Assembly (NCBI RefSeq): GCF_001880325.1 | Contig: NZ_CP016312.1 | Location: 1,612,001 to 1,676,000, forward strand | Direction of reading: 5' to 3' | From: Thermus brockianus | GTDB taxonomy: Bacteria > Deinococcota > Deinococci > Deinococcales > Thermaceae | Length of the DNA: 64,000 nt | Shown here: positions 3,451-54,770 of the stretch, in pieces | Numbering within the stretch: position 1 is the first letter of the stretch | How the letters are laid out: each line of letters starts with the position of its first letter | Program-made: the position numbers and the translations under genes | The notes under the pieces: model-generated | Seen by the model: only the letters and a program-made list of their open reading frames with translations | The model's database searches: none | What the model was told of the DNA's origin: nothing

Positions 3451-5184
<1,734 letters not shown>

Positions 5185-8893: not shown

Positions 8894-9644
8894 CACCACC
8901 CAAAGCATACCTGGGCGTTTCGGTCCGTGAGGGCTTCCGCCTCGGCGAGGCTTAGCCCCCGCACCTCCGCAAGCCGCGCCAGGGTAAAGCGCACGTAGTG
9001 GGGGCGGTTGCGCTTCCCCCGGTGGGGCTCGGGGGGAGGAAGGGGGTGTCGGTTTCCACCAGGAGGCGGTCTTCGGGGAGGCGCCTCGCCACCTCCCTTA
9101 GGGGTTCGTTCTTCCTGTAGGTGAGGGGGCCTGCCAGGCTGAAGTAGGCCCCCACCTCGAGGCCCGCCCGCTCCAAGGCCGGGTGCCCGCCGAAGGCGTG
9201 GAGGACCACCCGTTTGGGGCGGTGGAGGCGGAGCCAGGCGGCGAGGTCCTCCTCGGCGCTTCCGTCCTTGCTCCGCACGTGGAGGACAAGGGGAAGCCCC
9301 CTTTCTTCCGCCAGGGCCGCCTGGAAGTCCAGGGCGCGCAGCTGGGCCCTTTGGGTCTCGGGGGTCCAGTAGTAGTCCAGGCCCGTCTCCCCGATGGCCC
9401 TTACCCGCTCGTGGCGGGCGTGGTGGCGGAGCGCCTCCTCCACCTCCGGGGAGAGGAGGTGGGCGCTCGTGGGGTGGAGGCCGAGGGCGGCGTACACGTT
9501 CCCTTGGGCCAGGGCCAGGGTCTTCTCCCAACGGCTTGGGTCCACCCCTAGGGTGAGGACGGCCCGGAGTTCCGGGAGGTGGGCCTGCACCTCCGCTAGC
9601 TCCCCGGGTTCCAGGAAGTCCAGGTGGGCGTGGGTATCGGTCAC
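8893..9644 (-). CDS. tatD: TatD-family metal-dependent hydrolase (frameshifted in this sequence)
   Basis: TatD DNases are TIM-barrel metalloenzymes. The N-terminal part begins TDTHAHLDFLE (metal ligands HAH) and continues through GLHPTSAH, GETGLDYYW and LHVRSK to LVETDTPFLPP, all family motifs. After that the frame is lost at a run of six G (plus strand 9031-9036). With one extra base the frame reads PPEPHRGKRNRPHYVRF and ends at TGA 8893-8895, giving a normal 250-aa protein whose stop overlaps the next start. The break is probably a sequencing error. Start is GTG 9644, with a -10 like box TAAGCT (complement of 9652-9657) seven bases before it, suggesting a leaderless mRNA. Confidence 0.85.
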
Positions 9645-9727: not shown

Positions 9728-10714
9728 ATGAAGCGGCTGGCCCTGCTTCCCCTTCTCCTCGCCGCCTGCGCCCCTCTCCTTTTGCGGGTGGACCCCGAAA
9801 GGCTTCCCGACCCCAAGGATTGGGACCCGAAGCCCGCCCCTTTGGAGTGGTGGTACGCCTCGGGCCACGCGGAGCCCTACGCCTTCCACTTCGCCTTCTT
9901 CAAGGCCTACGCCCCTCCTTCCTACCGCATCCTGGGCCTGCCGGGAAGCCTCTTTGGCGCCTTCCACGCCGCCCACCTGGCCCTCACCGACCTGCGCACG
10001 GGGGAGAGGCGCTTCCTCGAGGTTTCCGACCAGGACCTCCTGGCCCCCCGGGGCCGGGCGGAGCCTGGGCCCAGGCTGGAGGTGGGGGGTTGGCGCCTGG
10101 AGCGGGAAGGGGAAGACTTCCGCCTCCTGGCGGGGCCGCTAGACCTCTTCTTCCAGCCCCAAAAGCCCCCCGTGGTCCACCCCCCGGGCTACTCCGGCAC
10201 GGAGGCCACGGGGCGGATGTACTACCAGTCCTACACCCGGGTCCGGGCCTCGGGCAGGATTCTCGGGGAAAAGGCCGAAGGGGAGGCCTGGCTGGACCAC
10301 CAGTGGGGGGAGCAGCTTTCCGGGGTCCAGGCCACCTGGGACTGGTTTGGCCTCCACCTCTCCGACGGCTCCGAGCTCATGGCCTACCAGGTGAAGGACG
10401 CCCAGGGCCAGGTGGTCCAGGTCCTGGGGAGCCGGATGGACCCCTTGGGGTGGGTGGAGGCCTTGGACCTCGCCTTCGTCCCCTTGGAGGTTTGGCGAAG
10501 CCCCTCGGGCCGGGTCTACACCCTGGCCTGGCGCCTCGAGGGGCCAGCGCTCTCCCTAACCCTCAGGCCCCTCTTCCGGGAAGGGGAGATCCTCTCCCGC
10601 ACCACCCGGGTGGCCTACTGGGAAGGCCCCGTGGCGGGGGAGGGGTGGCTGCAGGGCTACCCCGTGCGGGCCCGGGGGATGGGGGAGTTTGTGGCCGGGA
10701 CCTTCCGCCCGTAA
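9728..10714 (+). CDS. Lipoprotein of the AttH/CrtC lipocalin-like family
   Basis: A 328-aa predicted lipoprotein: signal peptide MKRLALLPLLLAAC with the lipobox Cys at residue 14. The body has the family signatures EWWYASGH near the N-terminus, YYQSYTRVRASGRI in the middle and the GEAWLDHQWG motif that follows in AttH, Svf1-like and carotenoid 1,2-hydratase proteins. These bind or modify lipids; the substrate cannot be told here. Thermus makes carotenoids, but no carotenoid gene is nearby, so a hydratase role is only possible. A GGGGGAGG site precedes ATG 9728. It stands alone, divergent from tatD. Confidence 0.75.
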   Translation: MKRLALLPLLLAACAPLLLRVDPERLPDPKDWDPKPAPLEWWYASGHAEPYAFHFAFFKAYAPPSYRILGLPGSLFGAFHAAHLALTDLRTGERRFLEVSDQDLLAPRGRAEPGPRLEVGGWRLEREGEDFRLLAGPLDLFFQPQKPPVVHPPGYSGTEATGRMYYQSYTRVRASGRILGEKAEGEAWLDHQWGEQLSGVQATWDWFGLHLSDGSELMAYQVKDAQGQVVQVLGSRMDPLGWVEALDLAFVPLEVWRSPSGRVYTLAWRLEGPALSLTLRPLFREGEILSRTTRVAYWEGPVAGEGWLQGYPVRARGMGEFVAGTFRP

Positions 10715-10759
10715 ATGCGCGTGTTATACTAAAAGAGGTTTAGTGCGTAGGTGATATTT

Positions 10760-11413
10760 ATGGGTTTACGCGTGCTCGGCGTCAACGCATCGGCACGGAC
10801 GGACGGGTTTACGGCGGAGCTTTTGGACGAGGTTTTGGAGGCGGCCAGGCGCAAGGGAGCCACCACGGAGCGCCTGGACTTGGTGAAGCACCCCTTTCCC
10901 CTATGCGCGGGGAACTACTCCCAAGACCCTTCCTCCTGCGGTCCCGAAACCTGCGTGCAGGGGCCTTGGGACGGGTTTGGCAAGGTGGCGGAGCGGATCC
11001 TGAACGCCGACGCCGTGGTCTTCGCCACCCCCGTGTACTGGTTTAGCGTTTCCGCCCGGATGAAGGCCCTCTTGGAGCGGATGACCTCCATGGAAAACCA
11101 GGGGCTTCTCAACCTGGGCAAGCCCATGGCCCTCCTGGCGGTGGCCGAGGAGGAGGGGGCGAGCCAGGCCTTGGCCCAGATGCTCCTGCCCCTTTCCTAC
11201 ATGGGCTTCGTCCTTGCGCCCTTGGGCCTCGTCTATGCCCACCGGCGGGGGCTTGCTACCTTCAAGGAGAACCCGGAACTGGTGGAGGACGCCCGCATCG
11301 CCGGGGAGAACCTGGTCCTCATGGCGGAAAGGCTCCGGGGGGCCCCCTTCCAAGAGCCCCTTCCGAGCTACCTCTACCGGGTTCCCCGCCTCCCGGGGGT
11401 GGCCGCCGACTAG
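10760..11413 (+). CDS. NAD(P)H-dependent FMN reductase family protein
   Basis: A 217-aa flavodoxin-fold protein. It opens with VLGVNASARTDGFTAELL, the FMN-phosphate loop of the NADPH-dependent FMN reductase family (iron-sulfur flavoprotein branch), and has FATPVYWFSVSARMKALLERM, where the flavin ring sits. A Cys-rich stretch (LCAGN, SSCGPETC) follows the first third but is not the full iron-sulfur pattern. ATG 10760 follows AGGTG; an in-frame GTG at 10751 is possible. A TATACT box lies upstream near 10726-10731. Its 3' end overlaps the convergent tsaB by 4 bases. Reduces quinones, flavins or nitro compounds by family analogy; no specific substrate. Confidence 0.75.
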   Translation: MGLRVLGVNASARTDGFTAELLDEVLEAARRKGATTERLDLVKHPFPLCAGNYSQDPSSCGPETCVQGPWDGFGKVAERILNADAVVFATPVYWFSVSARMKALLERMTSMENQGLLNLGKPMALLAVAEEEGASQALAQMLLPLSYMGFVLAPLGLVYAHRRGLATFKENPELVEDARIAGENLVLMAERLRGAPFQEPLPSYLYRVPRLPGVAAD

Positions 11414-14418: not shown

Positions 14419-15669
14419 ATGAAGAAGATATTGCCGTTCGTGGCCCTTTTGGGGCTAGCCCTAGCCCAGCAGGCCAAACCCGAGGACGTCATCAAGGAGC
14501 AGTGCGCCAAGGCCAAGGTGGTGGCTGAGCTTTGGCACGGGTTCACCGGCGGAGCCCCCAAGACCGCTTTGGAGAACCTGGTGGTGGAGTTCAACAAGAC
14601 CCAGCAGGGCCGTTGCGTCCGCCCCGTGCCCCAGGGGGGGTACCGGGACCTTTCCACCAAGATCAAGGCCGCCTTCGCCGCCGGGAAGGTGCCGGCCATG
14701 GCCCAGGCCTACGAGAACAACATTGCCCTTTACCTGGAGGCCAAGGCCCTCTTGCCCATTGAGTCCTTGGGGGTGAAGCTCCAAGGGGTGAACCTCACCT
14801 TCCTGAACGCCGTGCGGTTCAGGGGCATGGTCTACGGCGTGCCCTTCAACAAGAGCATCCAGGTCCTCTACTACAACAAGGACCTCCTGAAGAAGCACGG
14901 GGCCAAGGTGCCCACCACCCTCGAGGCCTTCGTGGCCCTGAGCAAGCGGCTTTCCCAGGCGGAAGGGGGCCCCGTTTACTGGTTCCAGCCCGACGCCTCC
15001 ACCTTCGCCTACTTCTTCTTCAACCTGGGGGGAAGCTACCTGCAAAACGGCAAGCTCGTCCTGAACTCCAAGGAGGCGGTGGAGGCCCTCACCCTCCTGC
15101 AAAACGGGGTGAAGGAGGGCTGGGCCAAGGCCATCACCTCGGGCTACATCAACCAGAACCTGGGCTCCGGCCCTTACGCCTTCAGCGTGGACACCTCCGC
15201 CGGCTACACCTACTACCGCCAAGGGGCCAAGTTTGACCTGGGGGTGGCCACGCTTCCGGGAAGCAAAGGGCAGGCGGGCTTCGGCTTGGTCCAGGGCACC
15301 AACCTGGTGGTCTTCCGCCAGGCCTCCAAGGAGGAACAGGGGGTGGCCAAGGACTTCCTCCAGTTCGTCCTAAGCCCCAGGGCCCAGGCGGTCTTCGCCA
15401 CGGCCACGGGGTACGTGCCCGTGACCGAGGCCGCCCTCAAGGACCCCGTCTACCAGGGCTACGTGGCCGAAAACCCCGATTACGCCACCATCGTCCGCCA
15501 AAGCCGCTACGCCAAGTTTGAGCCCGCCTTGGCCGAGTGGGAGCAGATCCGCTTTGACATCCTGGGCCAGGCCATCAAGGAGGCCATCCTGAACAGGGTG
15601 GACCCCAAGGCGGCCTTGGACAAGGCGCAAAAGCTCGCCGAGGACCTCCTTTCCGGCAGGACCCGTTAG
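14419..15669 (+). CDS. Extracellular solute-binding protein, UgpB-like
   Basis: Periplasmic binding protein of the importer (family 1). The 416-aa product has a signal peptide ([17 protein letters not shown]), then VVAELWHGFTGGAPKTALENLV, which is the start of UgpB-type proteins for glycerol-3-phosphate or its diesters; the segments VPFNKSIQVLYYNKDLL and FAYFFFNLGGSYL also fit. Sugar binding cannot be excluded. ATG 14419 follows GGAGG; an in-frame GTG at 14407 would add four residues. A strong terminator follows at 15686. Confidence 0.88.
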   Translation: MKKILPFVALLGLALAQQAKPEDVIKEQCAKAKVVAELWHGFTGGAPKTALENLVVEFNKTQQGRCVRPVPQGGYRDLSTKIKAAFAAGKVPAMAQAYENNIALYLEAKALLPIESLGVKLQGVNLTFLNAVRFRGMVYGVPFNKSIQVLYYNKDLLKKHGAKVPTTLEAFVALSKRLSQAEGGPVYWFQPDASTFAYFFFNLGGSYLQNGKLVLNSKEAVEALTLLQNGVKEGWAKAITSGYINQNLGSGPYAFSVDTSAGYTYYRQGAKFDLGVATLPGSKGQAGFGLVQGTNLVVFRQASKEEQGVAKDFLQFVLSPRAQAVFATATGYVPVTEAALKDPVYQGYVAENPDYATIVRQSRYAKFEPALAEWEQIRFDILGQAIKEAILNRVDPKAALDKAQKLAEDLLSGRTR

Positions 15670-41829: not shown

Positions 41830-41876
41830 CTGGTGCGCCCGGAGGGATTCGAACCCCCGACCTAGGGCTTAGGAAG
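41830..41876. repeat. attL: left copy of the 47-bp tRNA-Arg direct repeat
   Basis: Identical over 47 bases to 54693-54739, which is the 3' half of tRNA-Arg(CCU) from the anticodon loop to CCA. Only this 3' part is present here; the sequence then departs (TCCTTGG instead of CCCCCGC). It contains the near-palindrome CCTAGGGCTTAGG (41861-41873), a likely core-type integrase site. It marks the left end of the integrated element. Confidence 0.93.
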
Positions 41877-42699: not shown

Positions 42700-42888
42700 G
42701 TGGGAAAAGCTCAAACGCTTCGCGACCGCATCCTCCTGGCGGTCCTGCGCGTCATCCTCGCCATGCTCACGCCCACGGGCCGCGTTGACGCGCTGTACGC
42801 GGCCAACGAGGCGGTTGATTGGGACCTGCAACGTGAAGAGGAGGGGGCGGAAAAAACCGCCCCCGCCCTCGAGGGGCGAGGGAGGTGA
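42700..42888 (+). CDS. Hypothetical protein, 62 aa
   Basis: Not recognised. GTG start 42700; a Leu/Val-rich amphipathic stretch (RILLAVLRVILAMLTPTG) is followed by an acidic part and a Pro/Gly/Arg end. It overlaps the next gene by four bases (GTGA), which supports translation as part of the replication operon. Confidence 0.5.
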   Translation: MGKAQTLRDRILLAVLRVILAMLTPTGRVDALYAANEAVDWDLQREEEGAEKTAPALEGRGR

Positions 42889-43931
42889 GCACGATGAACC
42901 CGGTGCCCGCCGGTACTCGCACCCTAGGCCCCGAGGGGGTCCTCGAGCACATCCTCTGGGCCACCCGGGCCCGCCCCTCGGGCCAGGGCCGGTGGATCGG
43001 CCATTGCCCCGCCCACGAGGACCGGGATCCCTCTCTCTCCATCCGCCTCAGCCCCGAGGGGCGGGTCCTGTTGCATTGCTTTGCGGGCTGCCCCACGGAG
43101 GCCGTCCTCGAGGCCCTGGGCCTTTCATGGGGCGCACTTTTCCCCGACTCCCACGAGGAGCCCTTGGGGAGGGTTTTTCGCCGCGTTCGGCCCGCGCCCT
43201 CTCCCCGCCCCGAGCCCCGACCGGACGAGGGGCGGCGGAGGCTCCTCGAGGCCATCTGGGCCCGGGCTGTCCCCCTCGACCGCCCCGGCGCGGAGCTGGG
43301 GCGGCGCTACCTCGAGGCCCGGGGCCTGAGCCTCGAGGCCGTCCTCCCCGGCCTCCAGAACCTCCGCCTCCACCCCGGCCTGGAGTACCGGGAAGGGGAG
43401 GAGGCCTTAGGGACTTTTCCCGCCCTCCTCGCCCGGGTGGAGCACCCTCAGCACGGCTTAGTAGCCCTGCACCGGACCTATCTGAGCCCGGACGGGAGGG
43501 GGAAGGCCCCGGTGGGGAGCCCCAAAAAGCTCAGCCGGGCGGTTCTCGAGGGCGGCCTGAAGGGGGCGGCCATCCGCCTCTACGCCCCTGGGGGCGGGGT
43601 TTTGGCCGTGGCCGAAGGGGTGGAGACCGCCCTCGCGGTGCGCGAGGCCGCGGGCCTTCCCGCCTGGGCCGCCGTGAGCGCGGGGGGCCTCGAGGCGTGG
43701 GAGCCCCCACCCGGGGTGGGAGAGGTCTTGATCGCGGCTGACGGGGACGAGAGGGGGGTGGAAGCTGGGAAAAAACTGGCGAAGCAGCTTTTGGCGCTTG
43801 GGATCGCGGTGAAGTTGGCCGTGCCGCCAGACGGCACGGACTGGCTTGACGTGCTGGCGGCGAAAAAGCGCGCGGGGCGGGTAGAGGCCGCCCCGGGAGA
43901 GGAGGAAACTGATGCTCAAGGAACACTCTAA
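42885..43931 (+). CDS. Zinc-finger/Toprim primase-like replication protein
   Basis: A 348-aa protein with a CHC2-like zinc finger: GHCPAHEDRDPSLSI followed by LLHCFAGCPTEAVLEALG, the pattern of phage and plasmid primases. A Toprim domain follows: VLAVAEGVETALAVREAAG (acidic Glu), then VLIAADGDERGVEAGKK with the Asp-x-Asp metal pair. It would make RNA primers, together with the DUF3987 protein whose start overlaps its end by 20 bases. GTG 42885 start. In the element it takes the place of a Rep protein. Confidence 0.8.
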   Translation: MSTMNPVPAGTRTLGPEGVLEHILWATRARPSGQGRWIGHCPAHEDRDPSLSIRLSPEGRVLLHCFAGCPTEAVLEALGLSWGALFPDSHEEPLGRVFRRVRPAPSPRPEPRPDEGRRRLLEAIWARAVPLDRPGAELGRRYLEARGLSLEAVLPGLQNLRLHPGLEYREGEEALGTFPALLARVEHPQHGLVALHRTYLSPDGRGKAPVGSPKKLSRAVLEGGLKGAAIRLYAPGGGVLAVAEGVETALAVREAAGLPAWAAVSAGGLEAWEPPPGVGEVLIAADGDERGVEAGKKLAKQLLALGIAVKLAVPPDGTDWLDVLAAKKRAGRVEAAPGEEETDAQGTL

Positions 43932-45474
43932 GGTTTTGAACGGCGTTTCGCAACAGGCTGACGGCTTCGACCCCGAGAAGGCCCTCGAGGCCCTGCGCAA
44001 CGTGCCCTACGTGCGGCCCGAGGACGTGGACGATTGGCCAGAGCCCCTGCCCCTGTTCCGGGAGGCCGACCCGCCCGAGCCCTACCCCCTCGAGGCCCTC
44101 GGGCCCCTGGAGGGCGTGGTGCGGGAGGCCCTGCGCGTGGTCCAGGGCGCGGAGGCCCTGACCGCCGCCGCGTTCCTCGCCGGGGCGTCCCTGGGGGCCC
44201 AGGGCATCGCCAACGCCGTGGTGGACGGGCGGACGTACCCGGCGAGCCTGTTTTTCCTGACCGTGGCCGACTCGGGGGAGCGCAAAACGGAGTTGGACCG
44301 CCTCGCCCTCCTGCCCGCCCGGGCGTGGCAGACCGCGAAGGCGGAGGTTGCCGCCTTGGCCGAGGAGGCCTGGCGCGCGGAGCGCGAGGCCTGGGAGGCG
44401 GAGCGCCGGCGCATCCAGGGGGAGAAGGGCCTCTCCCGGGAGGAGCGGGCCGAGGCCCTGAAGGCCCTGGGCCTCCCCCCGGCCAGGCCGTGGAGCGGGT
44501 TGTGCCTCCTCTCGGACGCTACCACTGAGGCCATCGTGAGCGCCCTGGCGGACGACTGGCCCAGCGTGGGGCTGTTCGCCTCCGAGGCCGGCGTGTTCCT
44601 GGGCGGCCACGCCATGAGTAAGGAGAAGCGGCTCTACACCATCTCCGTCCTGAGCCGCCTCTGGGACGGGCAGGGAGTGGAGCGGGCCCGGCAGGGGGAC
44701 GGGAAGCGCCTCCTCCTCGGGAGGCGGCTGAGCGTCCACCTGGGCATGCAACCCGAGGTGGCCCGGGACCTCCTCGAGGACCGCCTGGTGCGAAACCAGG
44801 GACTCTTGGCGCGCTTCTTCACCGCCTGGGCCCCCCAGGTGGGCCCCCGGCGCTACGTGGAGGAGGACCTGACGCGAAACCCCGCCTACATCGCCTACCA
44901 GGGCCGTCTGGACGCCCTCCTCGAGGCCACCGCCGGGAACGTCCGGGACGACCCCGAGGCCCGGGTGCGGGGGCTGGAACTCCCCAGCCTCCCCCTGCAC
45001 CCCGCCGCCAAGCGGCTGTACGTGGCGTTTTTTGAGCACCTGGAGGCGCAAAAGGAGGAGCTTGGGGAGGCCCGGGCGTTCGCGGCCAAAACGCCCGAGC
45101 ACGCGGTGCGCCTCGCCCTGGTCCTGGGCCTCTTCGAGGATCCGTCTCTCACCCGCCTGGGCCCCGAGCACATGGAGCGGGGCATCGCCCTAGCCGAGTG
45201 GTACATGCTGGAACACCGGCGGCTGATGGAGGGGGCCCGGGTGCCCGAGCCCCTTCGGCGGGCCGCGCGCCTCCTGGAGTGGCTGCGGGAGCGGGCGCGG
45301 GGGGGCGCGTCGCCCATCGCCACGCCGGACGTGGTGCGCTACGGTCCCCGGGCCGTGGGGCGCACCACCCAGGCCGTGCGGGAGGCCCTGCGGCTCCTCG
45401 AGGCCCACGGGTACGTTCGCGTCCATCGGGAGGGGCGCAGGGAGGTCTGGGAGTTGAACCCCCGGGCGCTTTGA
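43912..45474 (+). CDS. DUF3987-family replication (primase/helicase-like) protein
   Basis: A 520-aa protein of the DUF3987/YfjI type, found with Toprim proteins in plasmids and integrated elements. It has a variant P-loop at VADSGERKTELDRL, a long charged coiled-coil (AEEAWRAEREAWEAERRR), a GLFASEAGVFLGGHAMS segment typical of the family, and a C-terminal winged-helix-like part (VREALRLLEAHGYVRVHR). GKS is replaced by RKT, common in this family. Its likely role is origin opening or helicase loading; the heptamer array begins eight bases after its stop. Confidence 0.8.
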   Translation: MLKEHSKVLNGVSQQADGFDPEKALEALRNVPYVRPEDVDDWPEPLPLFREADPPEPYPLEALGPLEGVVREALRVVQGAEALTAAAFLAGASLGAQGIANAVVDGRTYPASLFFLTVADSGERKTELDRLALLPARAWQTAKAEVAALAEEAWRAEREAWEAERRRIQGEKGLSREERAEALKALGLPPARPWSGLCLLSDATTEAIVSALADDWPSVGLFASEAGVFLGGHAMSKEKRLYTISVLSRLWDGQGVERARQGDGKRLLLGRRLSVHLGMQPEVARDLLEDRLVRNQGLLARFFTAWAPQVGPRRYVEEDLTRNPAYIAYQGRLDALLEATAGNVRDDPEARVRGLELPSLPLHPAAKRLYVAFFEHLEAQKEELGEARAFAAKTPEHAVRLALVLGLFEDPSLTRLGPEHMERGIALAEWYMLEHRRLMEGARVPEPLRRAARLLEWLRERARGGASPIATPDVVRYGPRAVGRTTQAVREALRLLEAHGYVRVHREGRREVWELNPRAL

Positions 45475-45482
45475 GCGGGGGG

Positions 45483-45740
45483 TGGCTATAGTGGCTACTT
45501 TGGCTACTGAACCCCATGAGCGCCGTCCAGGACGGTAAAAAAACAGTAGCCACCCCCTGGCTACTGTTGGCTACGGAATGGCTACGGTCCTGAGGATCCC
45601 TACCCCGGGGCCCCGGCTACCGTAGCCGACCGTAGCCACAGTAGCCACTCCGTAGCCACCCTGTGGCTACTGTATTTTCCCCGTCCAGGACGGAGAAAAC
45701 CCCTCTCAGTAGCCAAAGTAGCCACCGTAGCCATAGCCGC
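45483..45740. repeat. Symmetrical iteron array, candidate replication origin or partition site
   Basis: The region has 13 exact copies of TGGCTAC: six forward (45492, 45501, 45558, 45568, 45579, 45664) and seven inverted as GTAGCCA (45546, 45632, 45641, 45652, 45709, 45718, 45727), with further near copies at 45483, 45614, 45622 and 45735. The 13-bp palindrome CCGTCCAGGACGG occurs twice (45523-45535, 45681-45693). The left arm (45483-45585) is mirrored by the right (45632-45733) with the same spacing to within one base. The palindrome CCGGGGCCCCGG (45605-45616) lies at the centre. It follows the replication genes directly and holds no gene. Confidence 0.85.
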
Positions 45741-45754
45741 GTGGAGGAGGTCGT

Positions 45755-46054
45755 ATGGGGTACCAGCGGTTTCGGCCTGAATGGGTAGTGGAGCCCCCTG
45801 TTGCGCCAGAGAGCCGCACCGAGAGCGAGGAACCCCATCGGGCGGTGCCTGTCCGGCCCACCGGGCGCGAAGTCCGCGCCGCCTGGTTTGCCGCGCCGCC
45901 CCGCCCCCTCCCTCCCGAGGTCATGCGCAAGGTAGGGGCGGTCTTGGAGATCCACGGCGTTCAGGGGGCCTGGAACATGGCGGGCAACCGCCTCCCCCCG
46001 GAGGAACTTGCCCGGCTCCTCGAGGCTTTGGGAGAGGGCACGTTGCCAGCGTAA
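45755..46054 (+). CDS. Hypothetical protein, 99 aa, next to the iteron array
   Basis: Not recognised. ATG 45755 follows a strong GGAGGAGG site. The N-terminal half is Pro/Arg/Glu-rich (EWVVEPPVAPESRTESEEP); the C-terminal half (PPEVMRKVGAVLEIHG then RLPPEELARLLEALGEG) looks helical. Starting 15 bases after the array, it could be a partner or regulator acting at it, but this is only inferred from position. Confidence 0.6.
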   Translation: MGYQRFRPEWVVEPPVAPESRTESEEPHRAVPVRPTGREVRAAWFAAPPRPLPPEVMRKVGAVLEIHGVQGAWNMAGNRLPPEELARLLEALGEGTLPA

Positions 46055-46063
46055 GGCCGGGGG

Positions 46064-46084
46064 TAGAATGGAGTCCCCTAGGGG
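46064..46084 (+). promoter_or_regulatory. Promoter and operator-like palindrome before the ImmA/IrrE gene
   Basis: TAGAAT (46064-46069) is a -10 box; six bases further on lies CCCCTAGGGG (46075-46084), a perfect 10-bp palindrome at the expected transcription start, nine bases before ATG 46093. It would suit auto-repression by the HTH domain of the gene product. Confidence 0.5.
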
Positions 46085-46092
46085 GGGCCGGG

Positions 46093-47226
46093 ATGAAAAC
46101 GGTAGAGGTACCCATCAAGCCAGAAACCCTCCGGTGGGCCATGGACTGGGCGGGCCTCGAGGCAGAAAGCCTCGCCCGGAAGGTCCAGGTCAAGCCGGAG
46201 AAGGTGGAGCGCTGGCTAGAGGGGAAAGAGAAGCCCACCTACCCCCAGGCCCTGAAGCTGGCCCAGGCCCTTCATTTGGGCTTGGGGCACCTCCTCCTGC
46301 CCCCGCCCGAGGTCAAGCTTCCTTTGAGGGACTTTCGTCGGGGAAGAGGGCGGCAAGCCCCCCCAAGCCCGGAGCTCCTCGAGGCCTACCACGACGCGCG
46401 ACGTAAGCAGGAGTGGTGGCGGGAGCGCAAGGGGAAGCCCCTTCCCTTCGTGGGAAGCGGCAAGGGCGCTTCCCCGGCAGAGGTGGCCCGCGAGATGGCG
46501 ACCTTCCTGCAAGTGGAAGCCTTGCGGAGAAGGGCCCGGGACCATCAAGGCTTCCTCAAGGCCCTTGCGGACAGGGCGGAAGCCCTTGGGGTTCTGGTCC
46601 TCCGGCAAGGGCACGTGGGCACCCACACCCGGAGGACCTACGACCCGGAGGAGTTCTCCGGCTTCGCCCTGGTGGACCCCGTGGCCCCCGTGGTCTTCCT
46701 GAACGCCCGCGAGCACCCTTCCCGCCAGGTCTTCACCCTGGCCCACGAGCTGGCCCACGTGTGGCGGGGAGAAGGGGGACTGGAGGGCGGGCTGGAGGAA
46801 GAGGCCCGGGACGAGGTGGAGGTCTGGGCGGACCACGTGGCCGCGGAGCTTCTGATGCCCGAGGAGGAGTTTCGCGCGGCTTGGAACGGGCACCTTCCCC
46901 CCTTGGAGGCCGCCCGGGAGGCTTCCCGGCGCTTCTTCGTGAGCCCGAGGGCCGCCCTGGAGCGGGCCTTTCGCTTGGAACTTGTGCACCGGGAGGGGTA
47001 CATGGAGGCCCTCGAGGCCCTGCGGAAGACCGCGCCTCCCCGTCCCAGGAAGGGGGGCGGGGACTTCTGGAAGACCCTGGTGGTCCAGAACAGCCCCGCC
47101 TTCGTGCGGGAGGTCAGGCGGGCGGCCCTAGAAGGGGAAGTGGACGCCAAGGACGTGGCCTTTCTCCTCAATGTGGACCTCAGGACGGCCTGGGCCTTCC
47201 TGGAGGGCAAGGGTGTACCTACTTGA
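46093..47226 (+). CDS. XRE-HTH plus ImmA/IrrE metallopeptidase
   Basis: A 377-aa protein. Residues about 10-70 form a Cro/CI-type helix-turn-helix (LARKVQVKPEKVERWLEG). The second half is a ImmA/IrrE zinc peptidase with HELAH at residues 218-222 and the third-ligand region DEVEVWADHVAAELLMP. Such proteins cleave repressors or are antitoxins of the Xre-COG2856 type. Its stop lies inside the next gene, a PIN-like protein, with 14 bases overlap, the pattern of a toxin-antitoxin pair. The HTH probably controls its own promoter. Confidence 0.85.
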   Translation: MKTVEVPIKPETLRWAMDWAGLEAESLARKVQVKPEKVERWLEGKEKPTYPQALKLAQALHLGLGHLLLPPPEVKLPLRDFRRGRGRQAPPSPELLEAYHDARRKQEWWRERKGKPLPFVGSGKGASPAEVAREMATFLQVEALRRRARDHQGFLKALADRAEALGVLVLRQGHVGTHTRRTYDPEEFSGFALVDPVAPVVFLNAREHPSRQVFTLAHELAHVWRGEGGLEGGLEEEARDEVEVWADHVAAELLMPEEEFRAAWNGHLPPLEAAREASRRFFVSPRAALERAFRLELVHREGYMEALEALRKTAPPRPRKGGGDFWKTLVVQNSPAFVREVRRAALEGEVDAKDVAFLLNVDLRTAWAFLEGKGVPT

Positions 47227-47782
47227 CGCCAACGCCATCATCACTCCCTTCGTCCCAGGCTTCCTGGAAGCCCTGGCTAAGGCCCTCGGGAGATCACCAG
47301 AGGAGGCCAAGGCCCATCTGGAGGCCTGGTTCCGGGACGGAATCAAAAGGGGCATCCTTCGGCTAGGGCGCGAAGTGAGGGACGAGATCTTGCGAAAGCG
47401 GGGTCCGGGCCATGACCTCCTGAAGTCCTTAGACGGGCAGTACAAGCTTCTGGAAGTTACCGAAGCTTTTTTTGACGCCTTGGAGAAGGTGGCCCACTTT
47501 GTGAGGGAACACTATGCCCCTGAGGACGCTGAGCCTTTTCTCCGAGGCGCTGACCCGACCCTGGTGGCCCTGGCCAAGGTCCACAACCTCACCCTGATTA
47601 CCCAGGAAAGGCACGTGGTGCCCCAGCTGGACGGGGCGAGTGGCCTAATCACGGGAAGGCCACGCCTACCCTATGTGGCCTTCGCCTTCGGGGTGCGGTG
47701 CGTGCCCTTGCTGACGGCTCTCCTGGAGGTCCAGGGGCAGGCTAGCCTTCCTCAGGCTCCAGGCGAGGCGGGCGGAGGGTAA
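47213..47782 (+). CDS. DUF4411-like PIN-fold protein, putative toxin
   Basis: A 189-aa protein beginning YLLDANAIITPF, the first acidic motif of PIN-like nucleases; further acidic residues occur in VRDEIL and in the GADPTLVALAKVHNLTLITQE segment (Asp plus the typical Ala-rich helix). This agrees with the DUF4411 family, usually encoded beside ImmA/IrrE-HTH proteins. It would be an RNase. GTG 47213 is chosen since it makes the first Asp come at residue 5, as in PIN proteins. From 47783 to 47914 only the palindrome GAACCGGTTC (47812-47821) was noticed. Confidence 0.75.
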   Translation: MYLLDANAIITPFVPGFLEALAKALGRSPEEAKAHLEAWFRDGIKRGILRLGREVRDEILRKRGPGHDLLKSLDGQYKLLEVTEAFFDALEKVAHFVREHYAPEDAEPFLRGADPTLVALAKVHNLTLITQERHVVPQLDGASGLITGRPRLPYVAFAFGVRCVPLLTALLEVQGQASLPQAPGEAGGG

Positions 47783-47914: not shown

Positions 47915-50401
47915 TCAGAGACGGGCCGCTTGGCGGAGGGCATCAAGCTCTTGGAGGGTGCGCACCATGAGGAAGCGGTTGCCCGTCTTCCGGGCCCAGA
48001 GCTGGCCAATGGCCTCCTTCTCGTAGGTCTCGGGGGTGTGCGCCAGGTGCGCCCCCTTGTACTCCACCACGAGAAGGGTCCCGTTCCGAAGCTTGGCCAG
48101 GAAGTCCGGGAAGAAGGTGCCACCGGGGTAGGGCAGGCGGAAGGCGTGGCGCCAGGTGGGGTAGTTGCGCACCCAGAACTCCACCTCGTCTAGCTCGTCC
48201 AGAAGGCGGGCGCACTGGAACTCCTCCGTGCCGTCCTCGAGGTCGGCGATGACCGGGAAGAAGTGCTTGCGGAAGACGTAAGCCCCCCGGTAGGGGTTGG
48301 ACGGGAAGTAGTCCCCCTCCAACCGCAAGGTGAGGGTCCCCAGGCTGGCAGGAGGGTTCTTCAAGAGGCGCTGAAAGACCTCCTTTCGGGCCGCTTCCCG
48401 GTGGGCGCGGATCTTGGCCTCCAGGAGGTCTCTGAGCCGCCGCTTCTCCGCCACCAGATCCTCTAGGGCGAAGCCCCGCTCCAGAAGCCCCCCCAAGGCC
48501 CTGTAGAGGAAGGGCAGGGTCTCCTCCTGGGGCAGGTCGGGGTGGGGGATGTGGCGGTCCAGCCAAAGGGCGAGGCTTTCCAGGGTCCAGCCCACGTGGG
48601 GACCGAACAGCCTCCCCGCCCGGTCCAACCCCTCCAGGCGGGCGATGCGCACCCGGCCCCCCTCCAGGCCGATCTCCCCCCTCACCCCCAGGGGCCCCGG
48701 GACGAAGTCCACGTGGGCGTCCCGACCCGCCAGGCTCCACCCCTCCTCCAGAAAGTGCTCGGCCTCCAGGGGCTCCCCGTGCCAGGCGAGGAGGGGTACT
48801 TCCAGGACCCTGCCCTCCTCGGAGGGGGTGCGAACGGTTTGTGGAAGCTTGTCCCGGTCCTCCTCCTTCAGCCCCTCGCGGAGGATGGCCTTTTCGCTAG
48901 GGGTCAGGGGCTCCTTGAGGACCAGGGTTTTGGTCTTCGGGTCGTAGGCGATCTTGGACCCTAGGGACTCCAGGACCTCTGGCTTGGGATGGGCTTTGAG
49001 GGGCACGCGCTCCTCCAAGCCCAAGCCCACGGCGTACACGGCCCGCTCGGCCTCGTAGCGCTCAAACCCCTCGAGGACCAGGGCTTCCCGGAGGGTGTTG
49101 GCCGCCTCCCAGAAGTCCTCGGACACGGCGAAGGCGTAGGCCCGGTTGAGCTCCTCCCGCTCCTTGGGCCTGGCCCCCGGCATCCGCAGCACCCGGCCCA
49201 GCACCTGTTCAATGGCCGTGGACGACTTCAGGGAGCGCACCGAGGCCAGCACGTAGGCGAAGGGGCAGTCCCATCCCTCCTTGAGCTTGTCCACGGTGAT
49301 GACGTAGCGCACGGGGGAGGAGGGAGAGAGGAGGTCCTGGCCCGTGAGGTCGTCCCGTTCCCCCGTGGAGACCGCTATCTGTTCTTCCTTTACCCCGAGC
49401 TCCAGGAGGAAGGAGCGGACCCTTTCCCAAGTGAAGGGGTCCTCGCCACGTTTGGGTTCGGCCTGGATCAGGAGGATGGGGCGGAGGTACTCCCGGCTTC
49501 CCTCGGCCAGGGCCTCGAGGTCCTTCCGCTTGGCCAGGGCCGCCTGTAGGACCGCCTCCCGGTCCTTCAGCACCACGAGCTCTATGGGCAGCTTGATCAT
49601 GCCCTCCCGGTGAAGCTCGTGGGCCGTGGCGGCGAAGAGGACGTTGGAGTCCTCCCGGGGCGTGGCGGTGAACTCCAGGATGACCCCGGGCTCCAAGCGG
49701 GCCAGGGTGTCAAAGGAGAGGGGGGTGCGGGCGTTGTGGGCCTCGTCCACCACCACGATGGGACGCATGAGGCGGAGGAGGTTGGCCAGGGAGTACCGCC
49801 CCACCCCTTCCGGGGGCGAGGATGCCCCTTCCGGAAGGGCGGTCTCGAGGTTCCCGAAGACGGCCATGAGGTGGCCGTTGTCCTCGTAGACTTTGCGCCC
49901 CTCGGTTTCCTCCACCCGGAAGGCCTGGAGGGTGGCCACCAGCACCAGGCTGACCGCGCCTACGTCCCCGGGAGTCAGGGCCAGGGCCTCCCGTAGGTCC
50001 ATGACCCGGACCTCACCCAGAGCCCCCTCGAGGGCCTGGCGGTAGGGATGGCGGGGGTCCTTCAAAGCCCGCAAGGTCTGCTGGCGGATGGCCTCCGTGG
50101 GCGTGAGCCAGACCACAGCGGGGGCGTCTTGGCCCAGGAAGCGCCGGGCCGGGGCCAGGGCGTGGGCCGCCAGGAGGGTTTTGCCCCCGCCCGTGGGGAT
50201 GCGGAAGCACACGTAGGGGATCCCCTCGAGGCCCACCGGTTCGTAGTAAGGAGGGGGGTTGTCCAGATACCTCCCCGCCACTTCGCGGTAGGCCTGGCCC
50301 AAGGGGTTGGGAAGGCCGGCGTCCGCGTGAACCCTTACCCGGTGGAGGAAGTCCTCCAGGGCCTTCAGGGCTTCCTCTTGATAGGCCTTCAGCTTCATCA
50401 T
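47915..50401 (-). CDS. res: Type III restriction endonuclease subunit Res
   Basis: ATP-dependent restriction subunit. The 828-aa product has helicase motifs ([77 protein letters not shown]) and a C-terminal PD-(D/E)xK nuclease: FFPDFLAKL then [11 protein letters not shown]. The start overlaps the mod stop (ATGATGA), so both are made together. No stop or shift is seen; it should be active. Confidence 0.92.
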
Positions 50402-51990
50402 GGAGCCACCTCGTAAGGGATGTGGCGGAAGGTGATGCCCAAAGCCTTCAGGGTGGCGGGGCTCAGGCGGCAGGAGGTGCCGTAGACCACCTTGGGGCCG
50501 TCAAAAGGGGGCAGGTGGGCCAGGACCTCCCGGGTGAGGGCGTTTCCCCCCTTGGGGGACTTGTCCTTCAGCACCCCGTTGTAGAGGAGGTAGACCGCCA
50601 CCCCGCGCTGGGACACGCCTAAAAGAGGGGGGGTGAAGGTCTCGGGCAAGGGCTCTCCCGTCTCCCGGTAGTAGACGTACCGGGCCAAGGTGAGGTAGTC
50701 CACCCCTTCCCGGATGCGCCCGTCTGGGGTGAAGAGGGGTTCCCCCAGGCGCAGGTACCGGAAGCCGCCCCCATGCGTCCTGGCGGCGTACTCCAGGCGC
50801 TTGCGGGTGATGTTCTGTGCGATCCCAGGGTCCAGCTCCACCAGGATGAAGCGCCGGTTACCCCCGTCCTCGGCGTTTTGCTTGAGCACCGCGTGCCCCG
50901 TGGTGCCGCTACCGGCAAAGGAGTCCAGGACGATGTCCTCGTCATGGGGGTTCGTGGCGATCTGCAGGATGCGCTGGAGGAGCCGGGTGGGCTTGGGGGT
51001 GGGGAAGTCCTCCCCTGCCAGGATTTGGCGCACCTCTCTGCGGGCCTCCTGGGTATCCCCAACGTCTTCCCGCAACCAGAGCGTGGTGGGCACCATGGCG
51101 GCCTGGACTTCACTTAGAAACTTCTTTAGCCTGGGTCTACCCCTACCATCTTTCCCCCACCAGATGCGATTTTCCTTCAAATGGCGCTCGTGTTCCTCAC
51201 GGGAAAAGGCCCAGACCCGGGTAGGAGAGGGCCAGATCTCCTCGCCGGTGTTGGGGTTGACGATGGGGTAGTAAAGGTTGGGCCGCTCGTCTTTGGTTTT
51301 TGCGCACGTGTAATCTACCGACTGCCAAGGACCTCTCGGATCATCGTCCGGGTTTTGGTACCGGGCCACCTTCGCCGGCGTAGCGGGGAGTTTGTTCAGA
51401 GCCCATCCCGCAGGGTCGTCCCGGTTGGACTTTTTTCGCTTGGCGTAGACCAGGATGTAGTCGTGCATGTCGGAGAAGTAGGTGGCATCGTTTTGAAGCG
51501 AAAACTTCTTTTGCCAAATCACCGTGGCCACGAAGTTTTGAGGCCCAAAAATCTCGTCTAGGAGCATCCTCGCCCGGTGGACCTCGTTGTCGTCTATGCT
51601 CATCCACAGGCTTCCGTCCTCCCGCAAAAGCTCGTGGAGGAGCCTGAGCCTGGGATACATCATGGAAAGCCACTTGTCGTGCCGGGAGAGGTCTTCCGCT
51701 TCCGGGCCTACCACCTTCTTCAGCCAGGCCTGGATTTCGGGGCTGTTCACGTTGTCGTTGTAGACCCAGCCTTCGTTGCCCGTGTTGTAGGGGGGATCTA
51801 TGTAGATGAGCTTCACCCGCCCCCGGTACTCGAGGAGGAGGGCCTTTAGGGCCTCGAGGTTGTCCCCCTCCACCAAAAGGTTCTCGCCCTCGCCGTAGGA
51901 GAGTTCGGGCACCGGGGCGAGGATGCGGTAAGGGACTTCCAAGTGGTGCCGCACCACCGCCTGCTTGCCGATCCACTCCAAGGCTGGCAT
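50398..51990 (-). CDS. mod: Type III DNA methyltransferase subunit Mod
   Basis: Adenine-specific methyltransferase of the beta class: [13 protein letters not shown] (motif IV, catalytic DPPY) comes first at about residue 70, then a target-recognition region, then the SAM-binding motif [12 protein letters not shown]. The product is 530 aa. ATG 51990 is chosen: TATACT (complement of 51998-52003) is seven bases upstream, so the mRNA is leaderless, and the longer frame to 52080 would overlap the darT remnant. The recognition site cannot be told from sequence. Confidence 0.92.
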
Positions 51991-51997
51991 GAGGAAG

Positions 51998-52017
51998 AGT
52001 ATATCCCCAGGTATAAT
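51998..52017. promoter_or_regulatory. Back-to-back -10 boxes for mod and the darT remnant
   Basis: Minus-strand TATACT (complement of 51998-52003) ends seven bases before mod ATG 51990; plus-strand TATAAT (52012-52017) ends six bases before ATG 52024 of the darT remnant. Both would give leaderless mRNAs. Confidence 0.6.
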
Positions 52018-52023
52018 GGAACC

Positions 52024-52161
52024 ATGCCACAGCAAAGCCCGGTCTATCCGGTGCCCACGCGCATCTACCACATCACCCACCTGGAAAACCTCGAGGGCAT
52101 CCTCGTTTCATGCGAGACGACCTCCTCAAAGCCCCGGTGGAAGCCCTGGTCAACAGGGTGA
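52024..52161 (+). pseudogene. darT: darT remnant (N-terminal fragment)
   Basis: The 45-codon frame begins [20 protein letters not shown] and continues ENLEGIL, which is the N-terminus of DarT, the DNA ADP-ribosyltransferase toxin (VPTRIYRITH...NL). After ILVS the sequence jumps into darG sequence in another frame, so some 170 or more toxin codons, with all catalytic residues, are deleted. The promoter -10 box still looks intact. This identification rests on a short but characteristic stretch. Confidence 0.7.
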
Positions 52162-53222: not shown

Positions 53223-53480
53223 ATGGGGCGGAAGCGCATTCGGTTCCGACTGCGGGAGTACCTGAAGGAGCGGGGGCTCAGCGTCTACAAGCTGGTGAAG
53301 CTCGTGCCCGAAATGCACCCGTCTACGGTCTACGCGATCGCCGCAGGTAGGATTGAAAGCGTTAGGCTCAGCACACTCGCCCAGGTGTTGGAGGGCCTCG
53401 AGCGGCTCACGGGCGAGCCCGTGGACCTGTGTGCGCTCCTGCGGGTAGAGGAGGTGGAAGGTGCCGAAACGGGGCGCTAA
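53223..53480 (+). CDS. XRE-family regulator of the integrase
   Basis: An 85-aa Cro/CI-type helix-turn-helix protein: FRLREYLKERGLSVYKLVKL, then HPSTVYAIAAG (recognition helix) and LSTLAQVLEGLERLTG, as in small XRE proteins. ATG 53223 is chosen because a -10 box lies eight bases before it. Its last codons overlap the integrase start by 20 bases, so it is co-translated with it and probably represses both by the TAGNCTA sites. Confidence 0.8.
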   Translation: MGRKRIRFRLREYLKERGLSVYKLVKLVPEMHPSTVYAIAAGRIESVRLSTLAQVLEGLERLTGEPVDLCALLRVEEVEGAETGR

Positions 53481-54594
53481 ACCGCGCCGCCACGCCTCGG
53501 GCCTTTGGGAGGTCCGGGTGTATGTGGTGGAGGACGGCAAACGCGTGCGCCGCTCCTTTTACGGCAAGACGGCCAAGGAGGCGCAGGCGAAGGCGGCGGA
53601 GTACCAGGTCAAGCACCGGCTGGGACTCATCCCCAAGCGCGACCCCCGGACCTTTGCCGAGTTCGCCCAGGCCTGGCTTGAGCGCAAGGCCCGGGTGCGT
53701 GGCCCCACCACCATCCGGGCCTACGAGAGAGAGTTGCGGTACCTGCTGCCCACCCTGGGCAACAAACGCCTCCAGGACATCGTCCCAAGCGACATCCGCG
53801 CCGCTCTTGACGCCCTGGCCCGCAAGGGGCTTTCCCCCAGGTCGCTGAGGAAGGTCCTGGAGCGGGCCCGGGCCGTGTTCCGGGAGGCCCTGGCCCTCGA
53901 GCTGGTGGCGCGGGACCCCACCGCCGCCGTGCGGGTGGAGGTCCCCTCAAGGCCCCCCGTGGGCCGCGCCCTCGAGCCCCACGAGGTGGAGGCCTTGCTC
54001 CGGGCCTTTGACGCGTGGCCCACTTGGGAGGTGGGCATGGCCCTGCGCCTCTGCCTTGCCCTGGGGCTTCGCGCGGGCGAGGCGCTGGCGCTCCGGTGGG
54101 AGGACGTGGACCTCGAGGCGGGGGTCCTCCACGTGCGCCGGGCGTGGACTGCGATGGGCGGGCGGGGGGTCCTCACCGAGCCGAAGACGCCCTCCTCGAG
54201 GCGGAGCATCCCCATCCCCCACGCCACCCTGGCCCGGCTTCGCGCCCGCTACCAGGAGCTCCTCGAGCTGGGGATCCCGCCCGAGGAGCTCAGGTTGGCC
54301 TGGGTGTTTCCGGGGCGGACGGGGGGGCCCCTGAACCCCCACACCCTGGGGCACGCCTTACGGAAGATGACCACCCGCCTGGGCCTTCCCCCCATCCGTG
54401 TCCACGACCTTCGCCACACCTACGGAAGCCTGCTCCTCGCCAACGGAGCCCCCCTTGAGCTTGTGGCGGAGCGCATGGGCCACGCAAACCCCAGCATCAC
54501 CCTGGGCATCTACCGCCACCTCTTGGCCCACGAGCGGGCGGCCTGGGTCGTGGACCCCGAGGAGCTGACGAGCCGGCCCAGGGGGCAAGCGTAG
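53461..54594 (+). CDS. int: Tyrosine recombinase (integrase)
   Basis: Integrates and excises the element at tRNA-Arg. The 377-aa product has an N-terminal arm-binding part (ASGLWEVRVYVVEDGKRVRR), a core-binding SAM-like domain (about 65-160) and the catalytic domain with Arg204 (LGLRAGEAL), Lys242 (EPKTPSSRRS), His315 and Arg318 (HDLRHTYGS), His341 (MGHANPSIT) and Tyr351 (GIYRHLL). All are present, so it should be active. GTG start 53461. It ends 99 bases before the right attachment site. Confidence 0.93.
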   Translation: MPKRGAKPRRHASGLWEVRVYVVEDGKRVRRSFYGKTAKEAQAKAAEYQVKHRLGLIPKRDPRTFAEFAQAWLERKARVRGPTTIRAYERELRYLLPTLGNKRLQDIVPSDIRAALDALARKGLSPRSLRKVLERARAVFREALALELVARDPTAAVRVEVPSRPPVGRALEPHEVEALLRAFDAWPTWEVGMALRLCLALGLRAGEALALRWEDVDLEAGVLHVRRAWTAMGGRGVLTEPKTPSSRRSIPIPHATLARLRARYQELLELGIPPEELRLAWVFPGRTGGPLNPHTLGHALRKMTTRLGLPPIRVHDLRHTYGSLLLANGAPLELVAERMGHANPSITLGIYRHLLAHERAAWVVDPEELTSRPRGQA

Positions 54595-54692: not shown

Positions 54693-54739
54693 CTGGTGCG
54701 CCCGGAGGGATTCGAACCCCCGACCTAGGGCTTAGGAAG
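54693..54739. repeat. attR: right copy of the 47-bp direct repeat
   Basis: Identical to 41830-41876. It is the 3' half of the functional tRNA-Arg gene. The near-palindrome CCTAGGGCTTAGG here is 54724-54736, in the anticodon loop and 3' anticodon stem, where recombination probably occurs. Confidence 0.93.
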
Positions 54740-54770
54740 CCCCCGCTCTATCCTGCTGAGCTACGGGCGC
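54694..54770 (-). tRNA. tRNA-Arg (anticodon CCT)
   Basis: Complete cloverleaf on the minus strand: acceptor GCGCCCG / CGGGCGC, D-arm GCTC...GAGC, anticodon loop TTCCTAA with anticodon CCT (reads AGG), T-arm GGGGG TTCGAAT CCCTC (with one G-T pair), encoded CCA. It is the attachment site of the integrated element and is kept intact by the 47-bp repeat. Confidence 0.95.

Follow-up and report, generated by a model that had tools for sequence, protein, structure and literature searches.

The origins of PICI and SaPI elements are located 3' of their initiator gene, according to two papers (PMC6092414, PMC7581432). As described in PMC6092414, a pri-rep-ori segment of the Escherichia coli PICI EcCICFT073 maintained a plasmid in E. 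coli, and deletion of the ori resulted in fewer colonies. The sites of this origin read TCTACC, and their arrangement comprises two forward sites, 46 bp, one reverse site, 22 bp and three forward sites, followed in the second half by two reverse sites, 22 bp, one forward site, 46 bp and two reverse sites. The annotation of the phage P4 record places ori1 at 9310-9413, with three reverse sites, 22 bp, one forward site, 43 bp and two reverse sites (steps of 10/43/22/11/10), and crr at 4291-4590. Both SaPI Rep and SCCmec Cch2 bind downstream iterons via their C-terminal domain (PMC7581432). DUF3987 proteins, which occur in PICMI satellites and as PrimPol-DUF3987, are predicted to be replicative helicases of mobile genetic elements (PMC5862659, PMC10803314). 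A term search of the text of these last two papers found no mention of iterons, and no earlier link between DUF3987 and a PICI- or P4-type origin was found in the literature searched.

The locus described here lies in a window of 64,000 nucleotides of Thermus brockianus DNA, within an integrase-bearing element of 12.9 kb that is bounded by 47-bp att repeats in tRNA-Arg. The repeat is an exact direct one, with its left copy at 41830-41876 and its right copy at 54693-54739, the latter inside tRNA-Arg(CCT) (54694-54770), and corresponds to an insertion in the 3' part of this gene. The joined flanks match uninterrupted in four other Thermus genomes, with 91% identity in two of them (G010 and G011) and 82% in the other two (G021 and G024). 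Judging from the att repeats and these empty sites, the element is probably mobile, and it appears to be integrative and satellite-like; no terminase or capsid family was found among the element ORFs searched. Thermus parvatiensis carries the element at 99% identity, and its left 8.7 kb is also present in another Thermus at 97% identity.

The primase, the DUF3987 gene, the 99-aa ORF and the integrase gene described below are on the forward strand. A primase with DUF7146 and Toprim_3 domains (42885-43931; Pfam E-values 3.5e-25 and 2.7e-19; PHROG 510, DNA primase, E 2.8e-40) overlaps a YfjI-type DUF3987 gene (43912-45474; Pfam E 5e-70; PHROG 2373, 'DNA helicase', E 2.4e-39), the candidate helicase/initiator. 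In T. parvatiensis (L017/L021) the DUF3987 gene is split into two overlapping frames, covering residues 1-197 and 185-520, as a result of a frameshift or a sequencing error. Just 3' of the array, a 99-aa ORF (45755-46054) has no family match and is plausibly a real gene. The region 45781-47782 holds an HTH-M78 peptidase gene, whose true start is probably near 46094, and after it a DUF4411 gene, likely a toxin-antitoxin-like pair. A type III restriction-modification operon (47915-52080; res E 6.8e-129, mod E 1.4e-194) is carried as cargo and likely serves phage defence, and a tyrosine integrase (53461-54594; Pfam E 1.9e-27) lies close to the right end.

The array directly follows the Toprim and DUF3987 genes, as the original prediction had stated, and starts 9 bp past the DUF3987 stop codon. 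It forms a mirror-symmetric unit at 45483-45733, with its dyad at 45608, made up of 13 exact TGGCTAC heptamers (all within 45492-45733), three near copies (TGGCTAT at 45483, and CGGCTAC at 45614 and 45622) and two CCGTCCAGGACGG palindromes, at 45523-45535 and 45681-45693, whose midpoint is the dyad. The left arm begins with three outer iterons on the forward strand (TGGCTAT, TGGCTAC and TGGCTAC; 45483-45507), followed by a gap that contains the first palindrome and then a TAAAAAAAC tract, a single inverted iteron (45546-45552, reverse strand) and three inner iterons (45558-45585, forward). A GC-rich central segment (45586-45631) around the dyad holds the two CGGCTAC near copies. The right arm mirrors this arrangement, with three inner iterons (45632-45658, reverse), a single inverted iteron (45664-45670, forward), the second palindrome and three outer iterons (45709-45733, reverse). 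Iteron centres fall at -122, -113, -104, -59, -47, -37 and -26 from the dyad in the left arm and at +27, +36, +47, +59, +104, +113 and +122 in the right arm, with steps of 9/9/45/12/10/11 from the outside inwards. The heptamers, near copies, palindromes and mirrored arms had all been claimed from the sequence, and the motif positions bear them out; the distances given there between heptamers and palindrome centres (25, 34 and 43 bp on the outer side, 20, 32 and 42-43 bp on the inner side) are also correct.

About five TGGCTAC copies are expected by chance in the whole window. Elsewhere in the window, and likewise in Markov-1 simulations, every other 7-mer stays at six copies or fewer per 260 bp, and a chance-repeat reading was rejected on the basis of the simulations. 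The mirrored-pair count of the array was equalled in none of 20,000 random placements and in 27 of 20,000 permutations of the observed spacings and orientations. The array is one compact unit that occurs once in the whole genome. Its arms are identical at 71 of 125 positions, mostly in the iterons, the palindrome and the outer 28 bp. The AT fraction is 0.20-0.35 in both 20-bp bins flanking the dyad, and short A-tracts are found only in the gaps. A central palindrome had also been proposed, and CCGGGGCCCCGG (45605-45616) is indeed present near the dyad; its centre at 45610.5, however, is 2.5 bp off, and more distant relatives do not keep it as a palindrome. It was therefore rejected as a functional dyad and is probably incidental.

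Clusters of TGGCTAC, a search for which had been suggested as a check, do exist, but in only three Thermus genomes, and other relatives use different heptamers. A pattern search alone would thus wrongly suggest that there are no relatives, and the protein-anchored search was decisive. Relatives were gathered in successive searches, first with DUF3987, next with the protein encoded behind it in Meiothermus-like relatives and finally with PF13148, yielding a set of 19 Thermaceae arrays beside helicase genes (that of the window and 18 others). An array at this place is accordingly carried by the Thermaceae relatives, with different heptamers; its lack there had been named as grounds for abandoning the proposal. 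The two-armed layout is kept in all 19 arrays despite about nine different iterons (TGGCTAC, TGCTAA, TGCGAA, CCCGCA, CACTGAC, ACCGACA, AATGTCA, CCCGACA and CCCGGCA); CACTGAC, for example, belongs with the G066b protein. From the outside in, a typical arm comprises two to three outer iterons spaced by 8-10 bp, a gap of 43-47 bp (55 bp in two Thermus elements), one reversed iteron and, 11-14 bp further, three to five iterons spaced by 9-11 bp, and the second arm is the mirror image of the first. All but one of the 19 arrays have the single inverted iteron in one or both arms, and the positions of both gap palindromes are conserved in relatives. The whole unit is tandemly duplicated in one locus (L083), whereas another (L020) has two near-identical complete arrays in opposite orientation (10617-10859 and 15309-15534) that flank the primase-helicase operon. 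In some Meiothermus copies an open reading frame runs through the array, so the DNA layout is kept there despite coding constraints.

Several arrays deviate from this pattern, namely a palindromic GTGCAC class, the AATGTCA class in its spacing, and those built on CCCTTTA and TTGACAA, and no array was detected by the test used at some DUF3987 loci of the phylum (G092, G102 and G033). Thermus Prim-Pol elements with iteron arrays, some of them with the palindrome, were also observed (L153:2760-2958, L156:2245-3028, L165:6828-6992, L166:6131-6447 and L168:6769-7037); we take these to be, perhaps, relatives of ICETh2. Neither the single protein nor the first alignment, used as queries, led to related loci in viral contigs, and among genome contigs these searches gave only T. 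parvatiensis, Meiothermus luteus and a distant Verrucomicrobiales MAG; phages gave no match. Outside the phylum, mirrored arrays lie right behind DUF3987 in a Psychrobacter plasmid pair (L113 and L114), which also carries RepM and an integrase, and at a Paracoccus megaplasmid locus, and Legionella oakridgensis has an array of three forward sites facing three reverse sites. No array was detected by the test used at the Legionella hackeliae, Citrobacter and E. coli YfjI loci.

The gene 5' of the array varies in its N-terminal part, which may be a separate Toprim primase, a fused Prim-Pol or an NrS-1-type helicase-binding domain, and a predicted C-terminal winged helix is retained across the relatives. 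The AF2 model of the window's DUF3987 protein has a pLDDT of 84.9 and places this winged helix at residues 446-515; an earlier model from five sequences was poor except for the same domain. A PDB sequence search returned nothing useful. The best Foldseek matches of the model are MCM helicases (probability 1.00, E 8e-4) with a TM-score of only about 0.3, so any likeness of DUF3987 to MCM would be confined to its AAA+ core. Among 11 non-redundant members, similarity of the initiator C-terminus correlates with similarity of the iterons (r 0.53, permutation p 0.0004), a relation confounded by overall relatedness. The second-element proteins of G010 and G026, whose iterons are CCCGACA and CCCGGCA respectively, share 91% identity across 787 aligned residues. 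The predicted C-terminal winged helix of DUF3987 is proposed as the candidate iteron reader.

Taken together, these data point to a replication origin of the PICI/P4 kind that would be loaded by DUF3987 and would serve the 12.9-kb satellite-like integrative element, a reading to which we assign a probability of roughly 0.84. It is supported by the place of the array 3' of a helicase gene, by an anatomy whose layout is conserved in 19 arrays while the iterons change, by the match of this layout to the tested EcCICFT073 origin and to P4 ori1, by the correlation between C-terminus and iterons, by the predicted winged helix and MCM-like core, and by the mobility of the element. Weighing against it are the GC-rich centre, the differing helicase family, the DUF3987 loci that have no array, the deviating Thermaceae arrays and the confounding of the correlation. 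DUF3987 would act as an MCM-like hexameric helicase-initiator and recognise the TGGCTAC iterons through its C-terminal winged helix. The six or seven sites of an arm (two to three outer, one inverted and three inner) would suit one hexamer in number, and we infer that one hexamer is assembled per arm. The gap DNA, with its CCGTCCAGGACGG palindrome and A-tract, may be bent back so that the outer and inner sites touch the same hexamer. The two mirrored arms would then load two opposed hexamers and permit bidirectional replication after excision, with primers supplied by the adjacent Toprim primase.

The original prediction had left the choice between an origin and a partition site, and the comparison strongly supports the former. 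A partition (centromere) site, or an incompatibility or handcuffing site that stabilises the excised circle, appears improbable here: iterons and palindromes are known in such sites and some relatives have two complete arrays, but family searches of the larger ORFs of the element found no ParA/ParB-like protein, arrays stand behind the helicase gene in a variety of elements, and the layout equals that of a tested origin. Slightly less probable again is a role as operator, with iterons and palindromes controlling the downstream genes or autoregulating the primase-helicase operon. Directly downstream of the array there is indeed an ORF that has a ribosome-binding-like sequence, and the palindromes of the array resemble repressor sites; a 250-bp mirror of 16 sites, however, far exceeds the needs of an operator, the downstream genes are not the same in Thermus and Meiothermus, and the array of Meiothermus lies inside an open reading frame. 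There is very little chance that the symmetry merely arose when one arm was recently duplicated in inverted form, with the iterons alone being functional. The arms do share long matches (28 bp at 93% and 42 bp at 81%), but many elements with other iterons, as well as a proteobacterial PICI, show the mirrored layout, so that selection maintains the symmetry however it came about. We also discarded the readings as a relaxase oriT or a telomere, as no matching genes were found among the ORFs searched or the fit was poor.

The gaps of both arms contain palindromes of the GTCCWGGAC type. Across the set, 28 of 38 gaps hold a copy with no more than one mismatch in 10 positions, compared with 0.3% of shuffled gaps. 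These palindromes persist while the iterons change and are, for this reason, probably read by a different protein. In 27 Thermus genomes, CCGTCCWGGACGG is found at 51 places, compared with seven for the reversed control. Among the fetched sites outside the window's element, about 17 belong to CRISPR leaders, where the first repeat follows some 20 bp further on, and about ten are in other mobile-element or plasmid-like loci, several of them beside iteron arrays; the remaining fetched sites are mostly chance-like matches in genes. The leader sites precede the first repeat (GTTGCAAGAGCTTGAGCCCCGTAAGGGGATTGCGAC or similar) of Thermus CRISPR arrays at L169:4289, L170:2226 and 17388, and L171:2807 and 16700, and further ones are present in L176, L177, L186, L190, L191, L195-L197, L199, L200 and L207-L210. 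The leaders are homologous to one another, and their CCGTCCWGGACGG copies are therefore not independent events. At L203:641 (G021:C5:91340) the palindrome is flanked by a DnaA-box-like TTATCCACAG and by TTTTCCACA, an arrangement like that of plasmid or chromosomal origins. The genome of the window also includes a contig of 10.3 kb, perhaps a plasmid, on which the palindrome (L161:2449, G000:C3:9448, and L189:651) is apparently intergenic and is accompanied by an A-tract as in the origin gaps.

A host DNA-bending factor at the palindrome would be the simplest idea. A broader proposal, possible but doubtful, is that a single DNA-bending protein of the Thermaceae host, a substitute for IHF, binds at CCGTCCWGGACGG and serves two unrelated machines: it would fold the gaps of satellite origins, bringing outer and inner iterons to one and the same helicase hexamer, and bend CRISPR leaders by the first repeat for spacer acquisition. 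Separately, the same tentative proposal holds that the one-arm grammar (outer pair, gap of 43-47 bp, inverted site, inner triplet) is a general one-hexamer loading site common to P4, PICI and DUF3987 elements, with P4 ori1/crr as its split form.

The satellite-origin reading places origins of this type in Deinococcota and gives the large, uncharacterised DUF3987 family a link to a defined origin, for which the C-terminal winged helix is a testable candidate reader. An arm grammar common to P4, the E. coli PICI and Thermus despite different helicases and iterons offers a model for the loading of two hexamers and for the need of P4 for crr. The presence of the palindrome in both origins and CRISPR leaders points to a host factor. 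The stability of Thermus proteins and their suitability for structural work could bring a structure of the complex within reach. Against the literature searched, the arm grammar shared between families and the palindrome shared by gaps and CRISPR leaders look new.

The comparison with PICI origins is based on the E. coli EcCICFT073 sequence and, for SaPI, on published descriptions. As in the PICI origin, the Thermus array is directly 3' of the primase-helicase gene and consists of two mirrored sets of short element-specific iterons. Its orientation code is that of EcCICFT073 and its spacing is similar (9/9/45/12/10/11 compared with 9/46/22/11/9), with an outer pair, a 46-bp gap, a single inverted iteron and an inner triplet in the latter. 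The step past the inverted iteron, by contrast, is 12 bp in Thermus and 22 bp in EcCICFT073, a difference of one helical turn, and a GTCCWGGAC palindrome is present in both Thermus gaps but not in the PICI origin. The PICI iterons are reported to flank an AT-rich region, whereas the centre in Thermus is GC-rich, and the array is for this reason classed as a variant of the PICI/SaPI-type origin rather than a typical member. The initiators also differ, being an MCM-like DUF3987 protein in Thermus and D5_N/DUF5906 in the E. coli PICI, which leaves homology of the whole replicon unproven. P4 ori1 equals exactly one arm of the PICI/Thermus unit in orientation, with nearly equal spacing, a likeness in layout only. 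The P4 crr lies 3' of the alpha gene, and both of its repeats begin with two forward sites, 43 bp and a reverse site, which resembles the start of the second arm. The Thermus arms stand back to back, whereas P4 ori1 is about 4.8 kb from crr and its second arm is degenerate; P4 ori1/crr can be read as a split form of the two-armed origin. The SCCmec Cch/Cch2 and SaPI Rep self-loading helicases combine a C-terminal DNA-binding domain, predicted here for DUF3987, with downstream iterons (PMC7581432). Cch, however, carries DUF927 in place of DUF3987, and for Cch2 only three AAGTG iterons and no mirror array are described. The DUF3987 primase of PICMI satellites and the PrimPol-DUF3987 replicases belong to the same helicase family as the Thermus protein. 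The claim that no described origin has this design was thus wrong in kind, as the E. coli PICI origins and phage P4 ori1 share the arm layout. Judged on its layout, the array appears to be an origin of the PICI/P4 kind that is new in its host phylum and in its helicase family and that has gained a palindrome.
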